Source of the DNA: a virus
Direction: 5' to 3' (one strand)
Length of the DNA stretch: 62,613 bases
Virus record (IMG/VR): IMGVR_UViG_3300040801_005541
Coordinates: 1-62,613 of that record
Part shown: positions 10,122 through 62,613 of the stretch, piece after piece
Position numbering within the stretch: position 1 is the first letter of the stretch
Layout: each line of letters opens with the position of its first letter
Position numbers and translations under genes: made by a program
Notes under the pieces: generated by a model
Databases searched by the model: none
What the model saw: the letters and a program-made list of their open reading frames with translations, nothing else
Told to the model about the DNA's origin: nothing

Positions 10122-10539
10122 CCTGCAGAACCTTTCGAACTGGATGAACGACATCCTTGCCCTCGACCCAATCCTCGAAGAACTGGAGCCGCTGACCGGT
10201 GACGAGTTCTTCCCGGGCGCCTCCTACGCCACGATCACCTCGCTGATCGGGTCCAATCCGCGGATCCTCGCCTACAAGGTCGAGTCGCCGAAGGCGCTCG
10301 CGCCGCTGCTGAAGGCGCTCCGCGCCGGCGGCTGGAAGCGGACCGCCTCGTCCTCCTCGAAGCTCCGGCTCCAGGTCTGCTATTCACGCGACGGCTTCAC
10401 GCTGGAGCTGGACGTCCACTTCGTCGAGACCGAGACCCAGCGCTGCCGGTTGGTCCCGGTCGGCGAGGAGTTGAAGCCGGTCTACAAGGAGCTGTGCGGC
10501 GAGGAACTCGCGGCGTGGGAGGCTACCCATGAAGCGTGA
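10099..10539 (+). CDS. Hypothetical protein
   Basis: 146 residues with AGGAG ahead of ATG 10099. The N-terminus is acidic and helical, followed by an alpha/beta segment with APLLKALRAGGWKR. No family is recognised. It overlaps both neighbours. Confidence 0.65.
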   Translation: MHQSTKNDLQNLSNWMNDILALDPILEELEPLTGDEFFPGASYATITSLIGSNPRILAYKVESPKALAPLLKALRAGGWKRTASSSSKLRLQVCYSRDGFTLELDVHFVETETQRCRLVPVGEELKPVYKELCGEELAAWEATHEA

Positions 10540-10852
10540 GTGGGTCGTGGAGCGCCTCTTCCCGGACGCCGACGGTCGAGCGGTGCTGTTGCTCTTCCTC
10601 CAGGACGCCGACCGGATCTCCCTGGTCGAGACGGAAGGGAGGTGGGACGTCTCCGCCCGCTTCCCGTTCTTCGTCGCGGCGGAGCCGGACGGGACCGTGG
10701 TCCGCGCCGGTTGGGCTCTTGGCCAGATTCTCGAAGCCGAGGTCCACCGCCGAACCCTCGACCGTATCGGCCTCCTCCCGCGGGAAGTCATCGGCGGCTA
10801 CCAAACTGAGGTCGCCATCCGCTTCCCGCGGAGGTATGATTCAGCACGATGA
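10529..10852 (+). CDS. Hypothetical protein
   Basis: 107 residues with GGGAGG upstream of its ATG. Beta-rich at the start (residues 4-45), then helical. No recognisable motif. It sits between another unknown and a lipoprotein. Confidence 0.6.
   Translation: MKREWVVERLFPDADGRAVLLLFLQDADRISLVETEGRWDVSARFPFFVAAEPDGTVVRAGWALGQILEAEVHRRTLDRIGLLPREVIGGYQTEVAIRFPRRYDSAR
10817..10840 (+). promoter_or_regulatory. Possible promoter inside the upstream gene, for the lipoprotein
   Basis: TATGAT at 10835-10840 is a strong -10 match and lies 8 bases before ATG 10849. That gene has no Shine-Dalgarno site, so a near-leaderless transcript is possible. The -35 (about 10811-10816, GTCGCC) is weak. The spacer holds CCGC and GCGG arms, as in the better promoters of this genome. 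Confidence 0.3.
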
Positions 10853-11076
10853 AGAAGACGCTGACGATCCTCGCCCTGTTCCTCGTCCTCCCGAGTTGCT
10901 CGCTCTGGGAGAGCGCCCTGATCGCCGCGATGACCCCCGATGAGCCGACCTACCACGACGGCTACGGTCCCGGCGAGTCCCACTTTGGTCAGTCGACCCT
11001 CCACATGAACCACAAGGTGGTCGGTCGAGCCGCTACCCTCTCCCGCCGTCTCCGAACCCGCTTGGGCAACCGATGA
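10849..11076 (+). CDS. Small lipoprotein
   Basis: 75 residues. The N-terminus has a Lys-Lys start, a hydrophobic stretch LTILALFLVL and a lipobox LPSC, so cleavage and lipidation at Cys17 are expected. The rest is short, polar and His-rich in the middle. Phage lipoproteins serve as outer spanin subunits or in superinfection exclusion; neither can be chosen here. The start overlaps the upstream stop as ATGA. Confidence 0.7.
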   Translation: MKKTLTILALFLVLPSCSLWESALIAAMTPDEPTYHDGYGPGESHFGQSTLHMNHKVVGRAATLSRRLRTRLGNR

Positions 11077-11369
11077 CCCACCCGACCTTCGATCTGATCC
11101 TCCGCCGCGCCTTCGACCGCCACGTCCTGACGGACGTCAACGTCGAGTACTACATGAACCACCACCTCGACTCGATGGTGATTCAGTTCAAGAAGTCGAT
11201 CGAGACGGAGGTGTTCCGCCGCGAGGAGAAGGAGTCAGTGTCGGTCCCGGCTGACTGGTGGTCTCACGTGAAGAGGGACCTGTTGCCGCGGTGGATCGCC
11301 CGTAGGCTCTCGCCGCCGAAGCTGAAGCGCATCCCCATCCTTGTGAAGCTCACCCTAGTTCCCCGATGA
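11073..11369 (+). CDS. Hypothetical protein
   Basis: 98 residues, basic, helical, with no recognised motif. 4-base overlaps at both ends place it in an operon with the lipoprotein and the large unknown gene that follows. Confidence 0.6.
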   Translation: MTHPTFDLILRRAFDRHVLTDVNVEYYMNHHLDSMVIQFKKSIETEVFRREEKESVSVPADWWSHVKRDLLPRWIARRLSPPKLKRIPILVKLTLVPR

Positions 11370-13321
11370 TCTCCATCCAACACGCCTCCCCGGTCCCGGT
11401 CCCTGCGGACTGGGTCGAGATCCCCCACGACGCCGACGTCGGTCCGTTCGCCGACCTCATCCTCCGGGACGGGCGGATCGCCCACGCCTGGCGGACCGGG
11501 TCCGCCGGCCGACAGACGACCTTCTACCACGCCCTGGTCTCCGACTTCGGTCCGGAGGTCGTCGAGGGCCAGTTGTTCCCGACGAAGGACCACCGAACGC
11601 CCTGGGACGAACTTCCCCGACATCCCTCCGCGTTCCGCTTCGACGTGACCATCGACGACTTCGTCGGCGTCGAGCCGGGCAAGTTCGTCGAGGACGACGG
11701 CGACCTCGTCGTCCGCGTCTCCCCTCGGTTCCTCCCTCTCCATCCAATCGTCGAGGTCGACATCACCCTCCAGCGGTTCTCACTCATGGAGAACGGCGGA
11801 CCCGTCGACATCGAGATCGACTTCGGCGAGGGCGCGACCGTCGTGATCCCGCCGGAGTCCGCCGGCTTCCTCGACCTCTCCGAGGGACCGACGAAGGGAG
11901 TGCTCACGATTGCGCCCTCCGGCCTGGACTGGGGAACTCGTCCGACCTACACGGTCCGGGTCTTCTACGACACGCCCAACTCCTTCTTCGACGGTCCGCT
12001 GAAGGCGGCGGCGGCGTTCGGCGCTCCCCGGGCGAGTTGCCTCCCGCGGCGTTGGTTCCCGCTCGGCGTTACCCCGCGGACCGACCACCACGTTGAGGAG
12101 TTCTTCCGCTCCGAGCTTCTCCAGTGGGACCTCGACGAGCAGAAGAACTACGACGACCGCCGACCCTTCAGCCAGGCGTTGGTCGCCGGCAACGCCGGGT
12201 CCCAGCGGTTCGGGACGTCCTTTGACGGCGTGATCTTCTCGCTGCCGCCCGTCGAGGCGTACCGCATCATGCGGATCGCCGCCGAGGACGAACTCCTCCG
12301 CCCGGTCCACTGGCTCGACGAGGACGGCGAGCTGGCGACCGCCGCCGACTTCCCCTGCACGAAGACGGACCTGCGGGTACCGTTCCGCCAGCACAGTCCG
12401 AACTCGGACCTCCCGGAGGTGATCGGTGGATGGCCGCCGCGGACGACGCCTCACGGCGGTCGGACCGCCGACGACGACGAGCACACCGACGACCTCGGGT
12501 TGTTCGCCTTCCTCGCCCTGGTTGGGCGCGGCTCGAAGCCGTTCTGGGACTGCCTTGACCAGATCATGGAGCGGGAGGCGGCGGACTCCCGCCTTCACTC
12601 TGGGAACATCGAGCAAACTCGCGGCGTCGGTCGGTCCCGCTCGACGATGGCGAAGGCGTGCTGGCTCCGCCCGGAGAACGAGGCCTGGAAGTTCATCCTC
12701 TCGACCTTCTGGACCCACGTCGGAGCGAAGGCGGAGTGGAACAAGTCGACCGCCGGACCGCTGAAGCCGATCAAGACAATCGGTCCGGACCTCCGGATCC
12801 TGAACGGCGAGCACCGCGGGTTCATGCTGTACGAGCACGCGACCGTCGTCCAGGCGCTGGTCGAGTCGGCGCACGTCCTCGACGGCGGAGAACGGCTGGC
12901 CTGCCTCGCGGCGGCGCGGACGGTCGCCGAGACGATCCTCCGGTTGGCCTGTAACGGCGAAGCGCCCTGGCCGAAGTGGCTGGCCTACGTCGTCGGCGTT
13001 CCGCACGTCGGCTCGGGCCACGACGGCTACGCGACCGGTGAGATGCCGCCTCCGGGCTTCGAGACGCCCGGGACGAAGGTCCACGAGAGCTGGGTGAACG
13101 GCTCCCCGGGTCGAGGCTGGACCCGTTGGGCCGGCCGGGCAGCCTACCTCCTCCTGTATCTCGACGACCTCGAAGGCGTCTCCAGCGCCCAATCGGAGAC
13201 GGCTCGGCTGATCGTCGAGGCGTTGGAGAACAACCTCCCGGCGTCGAGCGGGCACCGCGCGGAGCACTTCCGGATGACCGCCGCGCCGGTCGCCGAGGAG
13301 GATGCTCCCTTGGATTCCTGA
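11366..13321 (+). CDS. Large protein of unknown function
   Basis: 651 residues, not recognised. Residues about 1-210 look beta-rich and Ig-like, with many Asp, Gly and Pro. Residues 210-420 hold DDRRPFSQALVAGNAGSQRFGTS-type segments and GGRTADDDEHTDD. From about 470 the pattern is helical repeats (HATVVQALVESAHVL, GRAAYLLLYLDDL) like an alpha-helical toroid. It could be a virion or host-surface-acting protein, but it lies in the early arm away from the tail genes. No catalytic motif is convincing. Confidence 0.6.
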   Translation: MISIQHASPVPVPADWVEIPHDADVGPFADLILRDGRIAHAWRTGSAGRQTTFYHALVSDFGPEVVEGQLFPTKDHRTPWDELPRHPSAFRFDVTIDDFVGVEPGKFVEDDGDLVVRVSPRFLPLHPIVEVDITLQRFSLMENGGPVDIEIDFGEGATVVIPPESAGFLDLSEGPTKGVLTIAPSGLDWGTRPTYTVRVFYDTPNSFFDGPLKAAAAFGAPRASCLPRRWFPLGVTPRTDHHVEEFFRSELLQWDLDEQKNYDDRRPFSQALVAGNAGSQRFGTSFDGVIFSLPPVEAYRIMRIAAEDELLRPVHWLDEDGELATAADFPCTKTDLRVPFRQHSPNSDLPEVIGGWPPRTTPHGGRTADDDEHTDDLGLFAFLALVGRGSKPFWDCLDQIMEREAADSRLHSGNIEQTRGVGRSRSTMAKACWLRPENEAWKFILSTFWTHVGAKAEWNKSTAGPLKPIKTIGPDLRILNGEHRGFMLYEHATVVQALVESAHVLDGGERLACLAAARTVAETILRLACNGEAPWPKWLAYVVGVPHVGSGHDGYATGEMPPPGFETPGTKVHESWVNGSPGRGWTRWAGRAAYLLLYLDDLEGVSSAQSETARLIVEALENNLPASSGHRAEHFRMTAAPVAEEDAPLDS

Positions 13322-54411: not shown

Positions 54412-54491
54412 GGGTTGGTAGCTCAGTCGGCAGAGCGCCCGGTTCCCATGGGAAGCCCGGGAGGTCCCTGGTTCGATTCCAGGCCAGCCCA
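54412..54491 (+). tRNA. tRNA with expanded 14-nt anticodon loop (CCC or CAT)
   Basis: An 80-base cloverleaf: 7-bp acceptor (GGGTTGG with CCAGCCC), D arm GCTC/GAGC with loop AGTCGGCA, T arm CCTGG/CCAGG with loop TTCGATT, 5-base variable loop, discriminator A, CCA not encoded. The anticodon stem is CCCGG/CCGGG, but its loop is TTCCCATGGGAAGC, 14 bases rather than 7. Read from the 5' side, TTCCCAT is a normal Gly-CCC loop followed by a 7-base insertion; the TTCCCATGGGAA palindrome could also close to present CAT. Identity and function are uncertain. Confidence 0.72.
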
Positions 54492-58022: not shown

Positions 58023-58213
58023 AACGCTACGCCGTGTTTGCATACTCTGATTACTACCCCAGCGGAGGCTGGGGCGATCTCTTCGGCCGATACGAGACGC
58101 TGGAGGAGGCCAAGAAGGCGATTGAGGAGGACAAGGCTCCTGGCGGACCTTTGCGACAACGCAGCGATCACTACGACATCGTGGACCTAGTGACCGGGGA
58201 GTATGAGGAATGA
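58019..58213 (+). CDS. Hypothetical small protein
   Basis: 64 residues. RYAVFAYSDYYPSGGWGDLFGRYETLEEAKKAI is a common layout of small phage and host proteins (strand, Gly-rich loop, helix) with a C-terminal strand (HYDIVDLVTGE). Function unknown. ATGA overlaps at both ends lead into the modification cluster. Confidence 0.6.
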   Translation: MKRYAVFAYSDYYPSGGWGDLFGRYETLEEAKKAIEEDKAPGGPLRQRSDHYDIVDLVTGEYEE

Positions 58214-59010
58214 TAACGGACGTCATCCCGTTTGGTCTCCAGCTTCTGAAGACGGAAGACCTCGACCCGATCTACAGCGCGTTGGTCCGGACCGAGGACC
58301 TCGACCGGCGAACCCTCAACCGCTGGCTCCTCGTGTACTGGTGCTTCTACGACGCCGGCGTTGCATCGTTCATCGCGGAGAGCGACTCCGCGGAGAGCTT
58401 CTGGACCTGGATGTTCGTGGCGGCGAAGAACGAAGAGCGCCCGCCCGTTGGCGAACGCTGGAAGCGGGGAGCGGAGCGCCGCCACTTCCGCGGGGAGCTT
58501 GCGATGAAGTCGGTCGAAGACCTCCACGCCCGATACAGGGACTTCCCGGAGCAGATGGCCGAGATCTGCGCGAACCGCCCGCCTGGGCGACCGGCCGAGG
58601 TCCGCGAGATCTTCCGGAAGGTGAAGACGCACGTGGGCTTCGGCGACTGGATCGCCTTCAAGATCGCCGACATGATCGACCGGGTCATGAAGCGGTCCGT
58701 CGACTTCGACGAAGGCTCCGTGTTCATGTTCAAGGATCCGGTGAAGGGCGCGGCGATGGTCCGCGAACGCTACGGAGTCCCGGACGCGGTCGCCTACCTC
58801 CAGGAAGCCCTCGGCCACCGAGCCGCGCCGCCCTCCTACGACCGCCCGGTGGGCATCCAGGAGATCGAGACGGTCCTCTGTAAGTGGAAGAGTCACGTCA
58901 ACGGGCGTTACCCGGTCGGGAAAGACACCCGAGAGATCCGCGAGGGCGTCCAACCCTGGCTCGGAGTCTCCCCGCTCGCCCGTCGTTTCGCGGAGGCGCT
59001 CCCGTCATGA
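58210..59010 (+). CDS. Amino acid:DNA transferase (alpha-glutamyl/putrescinyl thymine pyrophosphorylase clade 2-like)
   Basis: 266 residues, helical. LLVYWCFYDAGVASFIAE, GERWKRGAERRHFRGE, and THVGFGDWIAFKIADMIDRV match the clade of phage enzymes that displace pyrophosphate from activated 5-hmdU in DNA with an amino acid or amine. In the M6/ViI pathways this is the step that installs the side chain. It opens the hypermodification cluster; the start overlaps the previous stop. Confidence 0.82.
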   Translation: MITDVIPFGLQLLKTEDLDPIYSALVRTEDLDRRTLNRWLLVYWCFYDAGVASFIAESDSAESFWTWMFVAAKNEERPPVGERWKRGAERRHFRGELAMKSVEDLHARYRDFPEQMAEICANRPPGRPAEVREIFRKVKTHVGFGDWIAFKIADMIDRVMKRSVDFDEGSVFMFKDPVKGAAMVRERYGVPDAVAYLQEALGHRAAPPSYDRPVGIQEIETVLCKWKSHVNGRYPVGKDTREIREGVQPWLGVSPLARRFAEALPS

Positions 59011-59813
59011 GCCTCCTCAGCAGCACGCCGATCGAGGTGTATCCCGAGCTGGCCGACCTCTCGGTGAAGCGAGAGGACATGTCCTGCGGCTCACCGGCTC
59101 TGGCGAAGGCTCGCGGAGCTTACGCCCGGGTCCAGCAGATGACCCGGAAGGGCGTCCGGACCTTCGGTGCCCTCGACGGCTACCACTCCCGGAATACCTG
59201 GGCTCTCGCCAGCGCCTGTGCCGCCTACGGCGCACGGTGCCTCGCCTTCTACCCGAACTACAAGAAGGAGCCGGGACCGCGAGAGGCCCAGCTCCGGGCT
59301 CAGGAACTCGGCGCCGAACTCCGCCCACTCCCGGCGGGCATGATGTCCGTTCTTTGGTACCAGGCTCGCAAGATCGTCCGAGCCGAGGGCGGCCATATGC
59401 TCCCGAACGCGATGAAGTTCACGGAGTCGGTCGCGGCGACCGCCGCCGAGGTCGGCGAAGAGGAGGCGAGCTTCGAGCAGATCATCGTCCCGTCCTCCTC
59501 CGCGACGATCGCCGCCGGCGTGATCGCGGGCGTCGTCCTCCGCGGATCCTCCACCCGAGTCGTCGTGTACCTGTCCCACACGAAGAAGCGGGACCCGCTC
59601 CTGAAATACATCCGCGAGTCGGTCCACTTCGTCACCGGGGAGGACCGGCTTCCCTCGCTCCACTTCGTGGAAGAGGGTTACAACTACCGTGAACCCTCGC
59701 GGGTGATCCGCGAGCTACCCTTTCCCGCCAGTCCTTTCTATGAACAGAAGGCGATCGACTGGTGGATGCGCGAAGGCGAACGCCTTCGGACCCTCTTCTG
59801 GAACATCGGATGA
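59007..59813 (+). CDS. PLP-dependent enzyme (fold type II, ACC deaminase-like)
   Basis: 268 residues. KREDMSCGSPALAKARGA near the N-terminus matches the KREDxxxGGxKxR pattern of the tryptophan synthase beta superfamily, making Lys34 the likely Schiff-base lysine. The IIVPSSSATIAAGVIAG stretch around 160-175 resembles the phosphate-binding part. In thymidine hypermodification pathways PLP enzymes decarboxylate or otherwise edit the attached amino acid. Whether this one acts on DNA is inference from position. Confidence 0.75.
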   Translation: MSLLSSTPIEVYPELADLSVKREDMSCGSPALAKARGAYARVQQMTRKGVRTFGALDGYHSRNTWALASACAAYGARCLAFYPNYKKEPGPREAQLRAQELGAELRPLPAGMMSVLWYQARKIVRAEGGHMLPNAMKFTESVAATAAEVGEEEASFEQIIVPSSSATIAAGVIAGVVLRGSSTRVVVYLSHTKKRDPLLKYIRESVHFVTGEDRLPSLHFVEEGYNYREPSRVIRELPFPASPFYEQKAIDWWMREGERLRTLFWNIG

Positions 59814-60388
59814 AACGAACAGACAAGACGCCGGCCCAGTTCTTGAACCTCACCCAGGGCGACCGGAACGCCGAAGCCATCGAGGAACTCCTCCACCACG
59901 CCTACCCGGAGCCGACGAGGCAGGAGGTCCGGATCCGTGACATCCGCTTCGGGATGGGCCGTTGGGCGAGGACCTGCCTGAAGTTCTTCGACAACGTCGA
60001 CTTCGTCGGCTGGGAGCACGACCAGGAATGCGTCGACATGACGGACCCGGACGTCCTCGACCGATGCACGGTCCACGTGAGCTTCTTCCCGCCCGAGGAT
60101 CTCGGTCCGCAGCCAGACATCCTCCTCTGCGACTTCAACAACCTGACGATCAAGAAGGCGGCGCCGCTAGTCGAGGCGGTCGAGCTGTATCGTCCGCGGT
60201 TCCTGATCTTCACGGACTCCGCGCCGTCGAAGCTCCACCTGAACCTGTCGACCTACGGGTTGGCGCGGAAGTCTGTCGCCGACTACCTCCGCTTGTATCG
60301 AGCGGTCCTCCCTGGCTACAAACTGACGCACTCAATCCAACCCCACCACGCCGTGGTGATCTCGCTCTGGACGAAGAAGGAAGACTGA
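59810..60388 (+). CDS. Rossmann methyltransferase-like protein in the modification cluster
   Basis: 192 residues. IRDIRFGMGRWARTCLKFF followed by VDFVGWEHDQECV resembles motifs I-II of SAM-dependent methyltransferases, and DILLCDFNNLT occupies the motif IV position, followed by ending strands FLIFTDSA and HHAVVISLW. The usual catalytic signature of base methyltransferases is absent. Inside a contiguous hypermodification operon, it may alkylate or otherwise modify the new side chain, or be a non-catalytic partner. Family not securely known. Confidence 0.6.
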   Translation: MKRTDKTPAQFLNLTQGDRNAEAIEELLHHAYPEPTRQEVRIRDIRFGMGRWARTCLKFFDNVDFVGWEHDQECVDMTDPDVLDRCTVHVSFFPPEDLGPQPDILLCDFNNLTIKKAAPLVEAVELYRPRFLIFTDSAPSKLHLNLSTYGLARKSVADYLRLYRAVLPGYKLTHSIQPHHAVVISLWTKKED

Positions 60389-61767
60389 TGGACCACGCTG
60401 CCTGGTTGAACGAAGAAGGCGACTCCCCCGCACAGGACAAATACCAGTACTTCATGCGGCCGGAGCCGAAGAAGGACCTGGGACCCATCCAGATCGACTA
60501 CGACAAGGTGACCGGCCGCGATATGCGCTGGCGCTGGGCGACGATCGGGATGGTCCGCAACGCACCGGAGGACGAGAAGCGCCGCGTGCGAGTCTTCCTC
60601 GATCCTCTCCCTCACATCCAGATCAAGGACGCGAAGCAACTCCAGGGCTGGTATCAATCCTCGGACCGAGCGATCCCCGGTCAGCGGTCGCGCCCGCGTC
60701 CGTGCTACACCGACGCGATGCTGACGGAGCCATACGGAGGGTATTGTACCGTGGGCTGCGCGTTCTGCTATATCAACTCCGGCTTCCGAGGCTACCGCGG
60801 CTCCGGTCTGATCTCGGTCCCGGTGAACTACGGCGAGCAGGTCGCGAAGCAGCTCGACCGGATGAAGACCTCCGGAGCGGGTTACTTCAGCTCCTTCACG
60901 GACCCGTTCCTCCCGCTGGAGGACTTCTACCACAACACGCAGAAGGGCGCGGAGGCATTCGTCGAGCGTGGGCTGCCGGTCTTCTTCCTCTCCCGGCTCC
61001 GCTACCCTGAGTGGGCCATCGACCTCCTGAAGCAGAACCCGTACAGCTACGCGCAGAAGTCGATGAACACCTCCTCGCGGGAGGACTGGAAGAAGCTCTC
61101 CCCGGGAGCCGCGACTCTCGACGAGCACCTCGACGATATCCGCCGCCTGAAGTCTGAGGGCATTTACGTCTCGATCCAGGTCAACCCGATCAACCCGGGG
61201 ATCACGTCCCACGAGGACATCTGTAAGCTCTTCGACGAACTCTCCCACGCCGGCGTCGATCACGTCATCGTGAAGTTCGTCGAGGCCGGTTACAGCTGGG
61301 CTCCGACGATGGTCAACCGGATGATTCAGCGGTTCGGACCCGAGCGAGGGACCGACTTTGCCTCCCTCTTCGTCGACAACATCGGCGGCCAGCGAACGAT
61401 CTTGGAGAGCTACCGCCTGAACGCCCACAAGATCTACTCGAAGAAGGCGGCGGAGGTCGGGATGACCTACGCGACCTGCTATGAGTACGAGTATGAACGG
61501 GACGAGCAGGGCGAGATCACGTCCAAGCGTGGGCGCTCGATCGGCGCGAAGTTCCTCACCGCGGACCAGTGCCACGGTCAGCGGGTTCCGATGTTCACCC
61601 GGCGAGAGCTGGACCAACCCTTCGCGGAGGTCGAGGAGTGCCCGCCCTCGGGCTGCCTGACCTGCGCGTCCGATAACCACGACAAGCCGCGATGCGGGTC
61701 GGAGCTGTTCGGCTCCGCGAAGTCGCTCCGCATGAAAGACCTGAAGCAATCGGTGTACGACTCATGA
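60388..61767 (+). CDS. Radical SAM enzyme of thymidine hypermodification
   Basis: 459 residues. The 4Fe-4S site is C120-x3-C124-x2-C127 (YCTVGCAFCY). The following barrel has SSFTDPFLPLEDFY and QVNPINPGITSHEDICKLFDEL. A second Cys group lies at the end: C418, C423, C426 and C436. In the published M6 pathway a radical SAM isomerase rearranges the glycine attached to thymidine. Gene context and coupling support the same role here. Confidence 0.83.
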   Translation: MDHAAWLNEEGDSPAQDKYQYFMRPEPKKDLGPIQIDYDKVTGRDMRWRWATIGMVRNAPEDEKRRVRVFLDPLPHIQIKDAKQLQGWYQSSDRAIPGQRSRPRPCYTDAMLTEPYGGYCTVGCAFCYINSGFRGYRGSGLISVPVNYGEQVAKQLDRMKTSGAGYFSSFTDPFLPLEDFYHNTQKGAEAFVERGLPVFFLSRLRYPEWAIDLLKQNPYSYAQKSMNTSSREDWKKLSPGAATLDEHLDDIRRLKSEGIYVSIQVNPINPGITSHEDICKLFDELSHAGVDHVIVKFVEAGYSWAPTMVNRMIQRFGPERGTDFASLFVDNIGGQRTILESYRLNAHKIYSKKAAEVGMTYATCYEYEYERDEQGEITSKRGRSIGAKFLTADQCHGQRVPMFTRRELDQPFAEVEECPPSGCLTCASDNHDKPRCGSELFGSAKSLRMKDLKQSVYDS

Positions 61768-62327
61768 AGACCTTCCTGAACATCCGCGGAGCGAACGGCT
61801 CCGGCAAGTCCACCCTCGCACGCGCCTTCTTCGGCGAGAATGACGCGACCGTCGACCTGGCCCACTACAAGACGAAGAGCGGACGCGACCGAGCGGTCAC
61901 CGGCCGGTCCAACCCGGACCGGAACGCCCTCGTGGTCGGCGACTACAGCACGATGGCCGGCGGTCTCGACAAGGTCCCGAACTTCGCCCTGCAGTTCGCC
62001 GCGATCGAGGCCGGCCTCCAGCTGGAGGACCTCGTGGTCGCGGAGGGAGTCCTCGCCTCGACGGTCTACGGCTCCTGGGCGATGCACGCCGAGAAGCTCG
62101 CCGCGGAGGGCGTCCGCGTGATCTGGGCGTTCCTGGATACGCCGTTGGAGGTCTGCCTCGAACGGATCCAGAAGCGGAACGGCGGGAAGCCGATCAAGGA
62201 GGACCTCGTCGCGAACAAGGTCCGCTCGATCGCGAAGGTCCGCCTCAAGGCGATTGACAACCCGGCGATCGTCGTCGTGGACCTCCCGCACGGGTCGCCC
62301 GCCTCGAAGCTGGAGGAGATCCTGTGA
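61764..62327 (+). CDS. 5-hmdU DNA kinase, P-loop subunit
   Basis: 187 residues. Walker A RGANGSGKST (residues 8-17), a VAEGVLAS strand, and a nucleoside kinase-like LDTPLEVCLERIQKRNGGKP lid segment. The family phosphorylates the hydroxymethyl group of 5-hmdU in DNA. The helical-domain protein follows with a GTGA overlap, so the two probably form one kinase. The start is fixed by an ATGA overlap with the radical SAM gene. Confidence 0.82.
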   Translation: MKTFLNIRGANGSGKSTLARAFFGENDATVDLAHYKTKSGRDRAVTGRSNPDRNALVVGDYSTMAGGLDKVPNFALQFAAIEAGLQLEDLVVAEGVLASTVYGSWAMHAEKLAAEGVRVIWAFLDTPLEVCLERIQKRNGGKPIKEDLVANKVRSIAKVRLKAIDNPAIVVVDLPHGSPASKLEEIL

Positions 62328-62613
62328 ACCTCGGTCCGCTGATCTACTGGATGGGGGAGCGCCACGAGATCTGGCGCCGGCGTCAGGACGGCGAACTCCC
62401 GCCGTGGACCGACGATCCGGTCCTCCGGGACTTCCGCTTCTGCAACGTCTTCCGGGAACTCGACAAGGTCACCATCTGGATCGACGAGAACATCCGGAAG
62501 CCGTTCGCCGACCACCCGCACCTCTGGTTCATGCTCGCGATCGCTCGCCAGATCAACCGGCCGGAGACGCTGAAGGAGCTGATGGACGTCGGTGACTGGC
62601 CGTTCACGGACGA
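62324..62613 (+). CDS. 5-hmdU DNA kinase helical-domain protein (5' part, crosses the circle join)
   Basis: GTG 62324 overlaps the kinase stop (GTGA). The first residues MNLGPLIYWMGERHEIW lead into FRFCNVFRELDKVT and the frame runs off the right end, continuing exactly at base 2 of the window. It is the same gene as the one entered at 1-700; function and domain are described there. Confidence 0.85.
   Translation, partial: MNLGPLIYWMGERHEIWRRRQDGELPPWTDDPVLRDFRFCNVFRELDKVTIWIDENIRKPFADHPHLWFMLAIARQINRPETLKELMDVGDWPFTD
62497..62613. repeat. Terminal overlap, right copy
   Basis: Identical to 1-117. Removing one copy gives a 62,496-bp circle with an intact gene at the join. Confidence 0.95.

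Follow-up and report, generated by a model that had tools for sequence, protein, structure and literature searches.

Only a few hypermodified thymidines are chemically known. The product in Pseudomonas phage M6 is reportedly 5-(2-aminoethyl)-dU (5-NedU), and within its gene cluster the radical SAM position is said to hold an isomerase and the PLP position a decarboxylase. The tailoring steps described reportedly comprise radical SAM isomerases, PLP decarboxylases, flavin lyases, and acetyltransferases. Pseudomonas phage SN1 was reported by its describers to be 96.8% identical to M6 (PMC9476957), and it served here as the genome through which a parallel with M6 was tested. Synechococcus phage S-B43 carries the CmoA/CmoX/CmoY carboxymethylcytosine system (PMC12783734).

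The window, i.e. the whole 62,613-nucleotide stretch of IMG/VR record IMGVR_UViG_3300040801_005541 that was analyzed, shares with M6 and SN1 (Yuavirus) a run of genes ahead of polA that encodes an amino acid:DNA transferase (AADT), a PLP enzyme, a radical SAM enzyme (rSAM), a P-loop kinase, a kinase helical domain, a thymidylate-synthase-like hydroxymethylase (TS), and an HD protein, in that order. The parallel with M6 drawn in the original prediction is borne out by this shared order and by protein identities to SN1 of 32-62% (rSAM 62%, helical domain 52%, AADT 50%, TS 49%, and only 32-34% for the PLP enzyme), with the exception of Nmad5, which SN1 encodes between the helical protein and TS and which the window lacks. 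A profile search found no Nmad5 in the whole window and gave no signal in control genomes either, and a direct comparison, which did recover Nmad5 in relatives, found none in the window's cluster. The window in turn carries a methyltransferase-like gene (MT) between PLP and rSAM that is absent from M6 and SN1, and its PLP enzyme is altered in active-site loops relative to theirs. The cluster proper, leaving aside the added gene, is a diverged example of a type that is known already; what is new here is the MT-fold family, its repeated recruitment, a cultured phage bearing a homologue, and the unusual PLP enzyme.

Other described phages resemble the window in different respects. The order and families of the window's cluster recur in Vojvodinavirus (Bordetella phages FP1, CN1, CN2, and MW2) and in Stenotrophomonas phage Bhz59, compared here through FP1 and Bhz59, but these clusters have Nmad5 and no MT gene, the reverse of the window. 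The Pseudanabaena cyanophage Pam3 (ON014755) carries both the cluster and an MT homologue of 27% identity (Pam3_39, annotated as hypothetical), and differs in its gene order, in the position of MT 2.4 kbp upstream of PLP, and in the presence of Nmad5. Replacement of Nmad5 by MT was considered and is not a rule, as Pam3 has both. The Cmo system brings a SAM-using enzyme of methyltransferase fold into phage DNA hypermodification together with glycine (PMC12783734), as is predicted for the window; however, its target is cytosine and its enzyme is a C5-methyltransferase homologue with an SPPC motif, whereas the window's MT has no such motif and is found within a predicted 5-hmdU pathway.

Organization of the gene cluster

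Nine genes on the plus strand run from position 58210 over the join of the circle to position 2551, all with intact ORFs and in the order noted earlier. That a thymidine-hypermodification cluster spans the join, as originally predicted, is confirmed by comparison of the sequence ends, where a 117-base direct terminal repeat (62497-62613) is identical to bases 1-117 and leaves a circle of 62,496 bases (the 62,613-base record minus the repeat). The helical-domain protein read over the join aligns at residues 6-289 with its SN1 homologue at 52% identity, and the join is therefore considered sound. Measurement of all eight junctions agrees with the earlier description of them as overlaps: seven are of 4 bases (AADT/PLP, PLP/MT, rSAM/kinase, kinase/helical, helical/TS, TS/HD, and HD/last gene) and one, MT/rSAM, is of 1 base (TGATG). 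Such overlaps are not specific to the cluster, since neighboring genes on both flanks overlap as well. Third-codon-position GC lies between 0.79 and 0.95 in every cluster gene, the MT-like and PLP genes included.

Core modification enzymes

Profile searches assigned the proteins to the expected families: the transferase and kinase proteins fall in ADDT, HMUDK_HMUD1, and HMUDK_hel, the radical SAM enzyme in phrog_9252, and the PLP enzyme in PALP. The transferase (aGPT-Pplase2/ADDT; 266 aa, 58210-59010) scores 93.4 bits against the Pfam ADDT profile (E = 2.3e-26; cut-off 26.2 bits) and is 50% identical to SN1_024. Its closest solved relatives are PDB entries 25qc (1.4e-80), an amino acid:DNA transferase, and 8z2m (4.6e-72), a glycinyltransferase; kinship to the latter suggests that the amino acid is glycine, the one used in the M6 pathway, and the enzyme probably joins glycine to activated 5-hmdU. 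The radical SAM enzyme (459 aa, 60388-61767; phrog_9252, 1.6e-211; 62% identity to SN1_022) contains CxxxCxxC at residues 120-127 plus a conserved C-terminal set of cysteines, and is changed at 0 of 94 near-invariant positions. The 5-hmdU DNA kinase is split into a P-loop part (187 aa, 61764-62327) with the Walker A motif GANGSGKS, which matches HMUDK_HMUD1 at 60.6 bits (1.9e-16; cut-off 27), and a helical domain (290 aa in total; 62324-62613, then over the join 1-700), which when read across the join matches HMUDK_hel at 175 bits (2.7e-51; cut-off 25).

The TS-like pyrimidine hydroxymethylase (328 aa, 697-1683) matches Thymidylat_synt (1.7e-24) and, in the PDB, CMP hydroxymethylase (5b6d) and thymidylate synthases. 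In alignment, it has Asn at the site that holds Asp in CMP hydroxymethylase. Asn at this position is the usual sign of dUMP use, and the enzyme is therefore probably dUMP-specific, the choice of base being read from that residue. The YfbR-like HD 5'-deoxynucleotidase that follows (176 aa, 1680-2210; YfbR-like 3.1e-8, phrog_6047 1.4e-43) could remove competing dTMP/dUMP. The last gene (2207-2551) encodes a small protein with a YGxSWKxRGG...ARKWDR motif, from a family that related clusters also carry between HD and polA. Its earlier naming as DUF1599 has weak support, as the protein itself has no Pfam DUF1599 match and a single homologue matches, at E 0.012; it is a weak candidate for a distant DUF1599/Nmad1-like protein. 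Across related clusters, this small protein (homologues in L012, L018, L019, L021, L076, and L087) alternates in the gap between HD and polA with an unrelated small protein of the SN1_014 type.

From these gene families and from M6, the first part of a pathway can be proposed. The TS-like enzyme would make 5-hydroxymethyl-dUMP, with the HD nucleotidase skewing the nucleotide pool so that 5-hmdU enters DNA (step 1); the split P-loop/helical kinase would activate the hydroxymethyl group on DNA (step 2); the amino acid:DNA transferase would swap the activated group for glycine (step 3); and rSAM would rearrange the glycinyl thymidine into an amino acid side chain attached through a C-C bond (step 4). 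These four steps very probably resemble those of M6.

The added gene and its predicted fold

The added gene (59810-60388) encodes a 192-aa protein with no significant match in Pfam, PHROGs, NCBIfam, or the PDB sequences, and as the sole query this protein retrieved nothing from 50,697 phages and nothing from IMG/VR. Its treatment as an orphan was dropped once homologues emerged from the neighborhoods of radical SAM genes. A family alignment of ten sequences (A4) yielded an AlphaFold2 model with a pLDDT of 85 and a pTM of 0.83, compared to a pLDDT of 37 from the single sequence. The model has a Rossmann-like alternating beta/alpha fold. Foldseek returned 902 PDB matches at E<=0.001, and among those listed nearly all are SAM-dependent methyltransferases; the best viral matches (TM 0.74-0.75) belong to uncultured phages and are AdoMet_MTases proteins. 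The family alignment, the model, and the Foldseek matches uphold the original label of methyltransferase-like: the protein is confidently modeled in the class I methyltransferase fold, and both SAM binding and methyl transfer are predicted for it.

Nearly all members of the family share three motifs: [DE]-x-x-x-G-x-G; following strand 4, D-[FYW]-N-x-x-T; and following strand 5, D-x4-[KRW]-x-H-[LM]-N-x(3,4)-Y. In the window's 192-aa protein, Asp108, Asn110, Asp136, His143, and Asn145 are conserved and are candidate active-site residues. Relative to the acidic-hhGxGxG form of motif I, two of the three glycines and the acidic residues, including the one after strand 2, are kept, and the first glycine is replaced by Arg or Phe. 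SAM binding is not certain because it is Arg that takes the place of this glycine in the subgroup to which the window's protein belongs. The class I methyltransferase fold is also found in enzymes other than methyltransferases, and the top Foldseek match to the model is PdxI, whose entries name an Alder-ene adduct. The fold might serve another transfer or rearrangement, such as that of an aminocarboxypropyl or aminopropyl group from SAM, leading to a longer side chain. The unusual motif I of the window's subgroup would suit such a role, as would the D-x4-K-x-H-L-N-x3-Y loop that follows strand 5, which is conserved to an unusual degree and for which the family matches offer no named counterpart; the weak sequence matches and most Foldseek matches are nevertheless to methyltransferases, and we consider a non-methyl transfer quite unlikely.

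Distribution and repeated gain of the MT family

To place the added gene in context, loci were gathered through the radical SAM gene, with Pam3 included. The MT family was found in 12 of 88 such thymidine-hypermodification loci, counting the window; the other 11 are L007, L009, L016 (Pam3), L022, L023, L039, L046, L061, L075, L082, and L094. The gene nearly always adjoins PLP or rSAM, and in most loci it lies directly beside PLP, L075 and Pam3 being exceptions to the latter. Its surroundings vary: AADT-PLP-MT-rSAM in the window, L082, and L094; kinase-rSAM-AADT-PLP-MT in L009, L039, and L046; PLP-MT-rSAM-AADT in L022; and rSAM-MT-kinase in L075. MT must have been gained or lost at least 8 times to fit the well-supported branches of the rSAM tree, and in the PLP tree the 11 MT-positive rows need 11 changes between presence and absence. 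When the family alignment was used for a pattern scan of IMG/VR, confirmed MT relatives emerged only in clusters of this kind. Searches by tblastn with four further members returned Pam3 only, or nothing, and Pam3, which also carries the cluster, is the only isolate found with MT among the 50,697 phage records. The same kind of scan across 84,980 genomes gave no confirmed relative, at a low sensitivity that leaves cellular relatives possible. The varied gene orders, the changes on the trees, and the restriction of matches to these clusters argue that MT is an optional tailoring module that appears to have joined them in many independent recruitments.

Two further observations concern the same region of these loci. 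The metagenomic phage L075 holds two diverged copies of the MT family (667-1434 and 10353-10931) within one hypermodification region. The position between PLP and rSAM, which MT occupies in the window, is taken in other loci by HNH-like or annotated endonuclease genes (L014, 7630-7991; L004, 5648-6028; L016, 13046-13405).

These data bear on whether the added gene takes part in base modification at all. The remaining genes match the M6-type set, the fold alone names no substrate, and the Foldseek matches include RNA methylases and an adenine DNA methyltransferase, all of which would be compatible with plain 5-(2-aminoethyl)-dU as in M6 and an unconnected methyltransferase of DNA or RNA whose gene just happens to reside in the operon. 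We regard that reading as rather unlikely: the family has been found only in these clusters and was gained repeatedly, the window's gene is translationally coupled between PLP and rSAM, and neither the [DNS]PP[YFW] motif of adenine and N4-cytosine methyltransferases nor the PC motif of C5 enzymes is present in the window's protein or in any family member tested. The recurrence of MT in unrelated clusters instead supports the earlier view that the gene leaves the end product open and potentially different from that of M6.

An unusual PLP enzyme

The original prediction had placed a PLP enzyme in the cluster, which is correct as to family (fold-type II; 268 aa, 59007-59813; PALP 1.1e-11), and had overlooked that this protein is an outlier. 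In a comparison of 49 non-redundant PLP proteins from such clusters, 46 positions were at least 95% conserved; the window's enzyme is changed at 14 of these, compared to a median of 0. In the same phage, the near-invariant positions of the transferase, rSAM, the kinase parts, and HD show no changes, and those of TS show 2. Many of the PLP changes lie in active-site loops. Residues 28-33, ahead of Lys34, read GSPALAK (with the lysine) in place of PGPxFSK, residues 58-67 carry G-Y-H-S-R-N-T in place of T-x-H-S-[QK]-A-G, and further changes fall at residues 112-118 and 188-191. Alignment to tryptophan synthase beta places Lys34 at the Schiff-base lysine and residues 58-66 at the loop that binds the substrate carboxylate, roles that are well established for fold-type II enzymes and presumed here. 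Lys34, the phosphate loop, and the C-terminal WNIG are kept. The related locus L100 has the first loop shortened as in the window, with the second change absent. A trimming artefact accounted for the appearance of L082 as a stronger outlier than the window.

In the PLP tree, the window's enzyme sits on an unusually long branch, as might be expected of a decaying gene or an assembly error. Such an origin is very improbable given the intact frame, the 4-base overlaps on both sides, a third-position GC of 0.84 with normal codon bias, and the conserved lysine, phosphate loop, and WNIG. A changed PLP reaction in the window phage is a serious rival to a pathway that follows M6 up to the action of MT. 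In that case, MT might cap a retained carboxylate by forming a methyl ester; alternatively, the PLP enzyme might take a methylated substrate. The 14 changes, several of them in the presumed carboxylate-binding loop, accord with this reading, as does the lack of change in AADT, rSAM, kinase, and HD; in contrast, the catalytic lysine and cofactor loop are retained, and the PLP loops of other MT-bearing clusters are ordinary, so that the altered PLP enzyme and MT are not generally linked and a rule tying one to the other was rejected. On balance, we judge this alternative unlikely while keeping it in view.

Predicted product of the pathway

We favor, with more confidence than doubt, a hypermodified thymidine whose synthesis follows the route of M6, supplemented by a single tailoring step. 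In step 5, which like those before it is modeled on the gene families and on M6, the PLP enzyme would act on the amino acid left by rSAM; in M6 this is the decarboxylation that gives 5-(2-aminoethyl)-dU. Because the window's enzyme departs from its relatives at their invariant residues, the step may be other than decarboxylation here. In step 6, MT would methylate the side chain, most likely at the amine and otherwise at the carboxylate or the alpha carbon, before or after the PLP step. MT probably methylates the side chain, the target atom being a prediction, and probably makes a further DNA base beyond those known. The most likely product is predicted to be methylated 5-(2-aminoethyl)-dU or a methylated form of its carboxylated precursor. 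We assign an even chance to the full proposal, in which a new, mobile family of class I methyltransferase fold, added many times to radical-SAM pathways, gives rise to an undescribed base (e.g. 5-(2-aminoethyl)-dU with an N-methyl group, or an amino acid thymidine that is C-methylated or carries a methyl ester) and in which the PLP step has been re-specialized in the window phage.

If true, a tailoring enzyme of the SAM type would add an enzyme class to the pathway and predict a specific new base. The proposal is directly testable because the cultured cyanophage Pam3 carries an MT homologue. Enzymes of this kind are also candidate tools to place or cap amines in DNA.

Other features of the phage genome

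The virus infects bacteria, and the window carries siphovirus-type genes for terminase, portal, tape measure, and tail proteins. One large tail protein has only ~30% identity to anything in the phage collection. A 651-aa ORF at 11366-13321 has no match in PHROGs, nor by tblastn in the 50,697 phages. The sole tRNA gene (54412-54491) is a tRNA-Gly with anticodon TCC; that the transferase, too, likely uses glycine is probably a coincidence.
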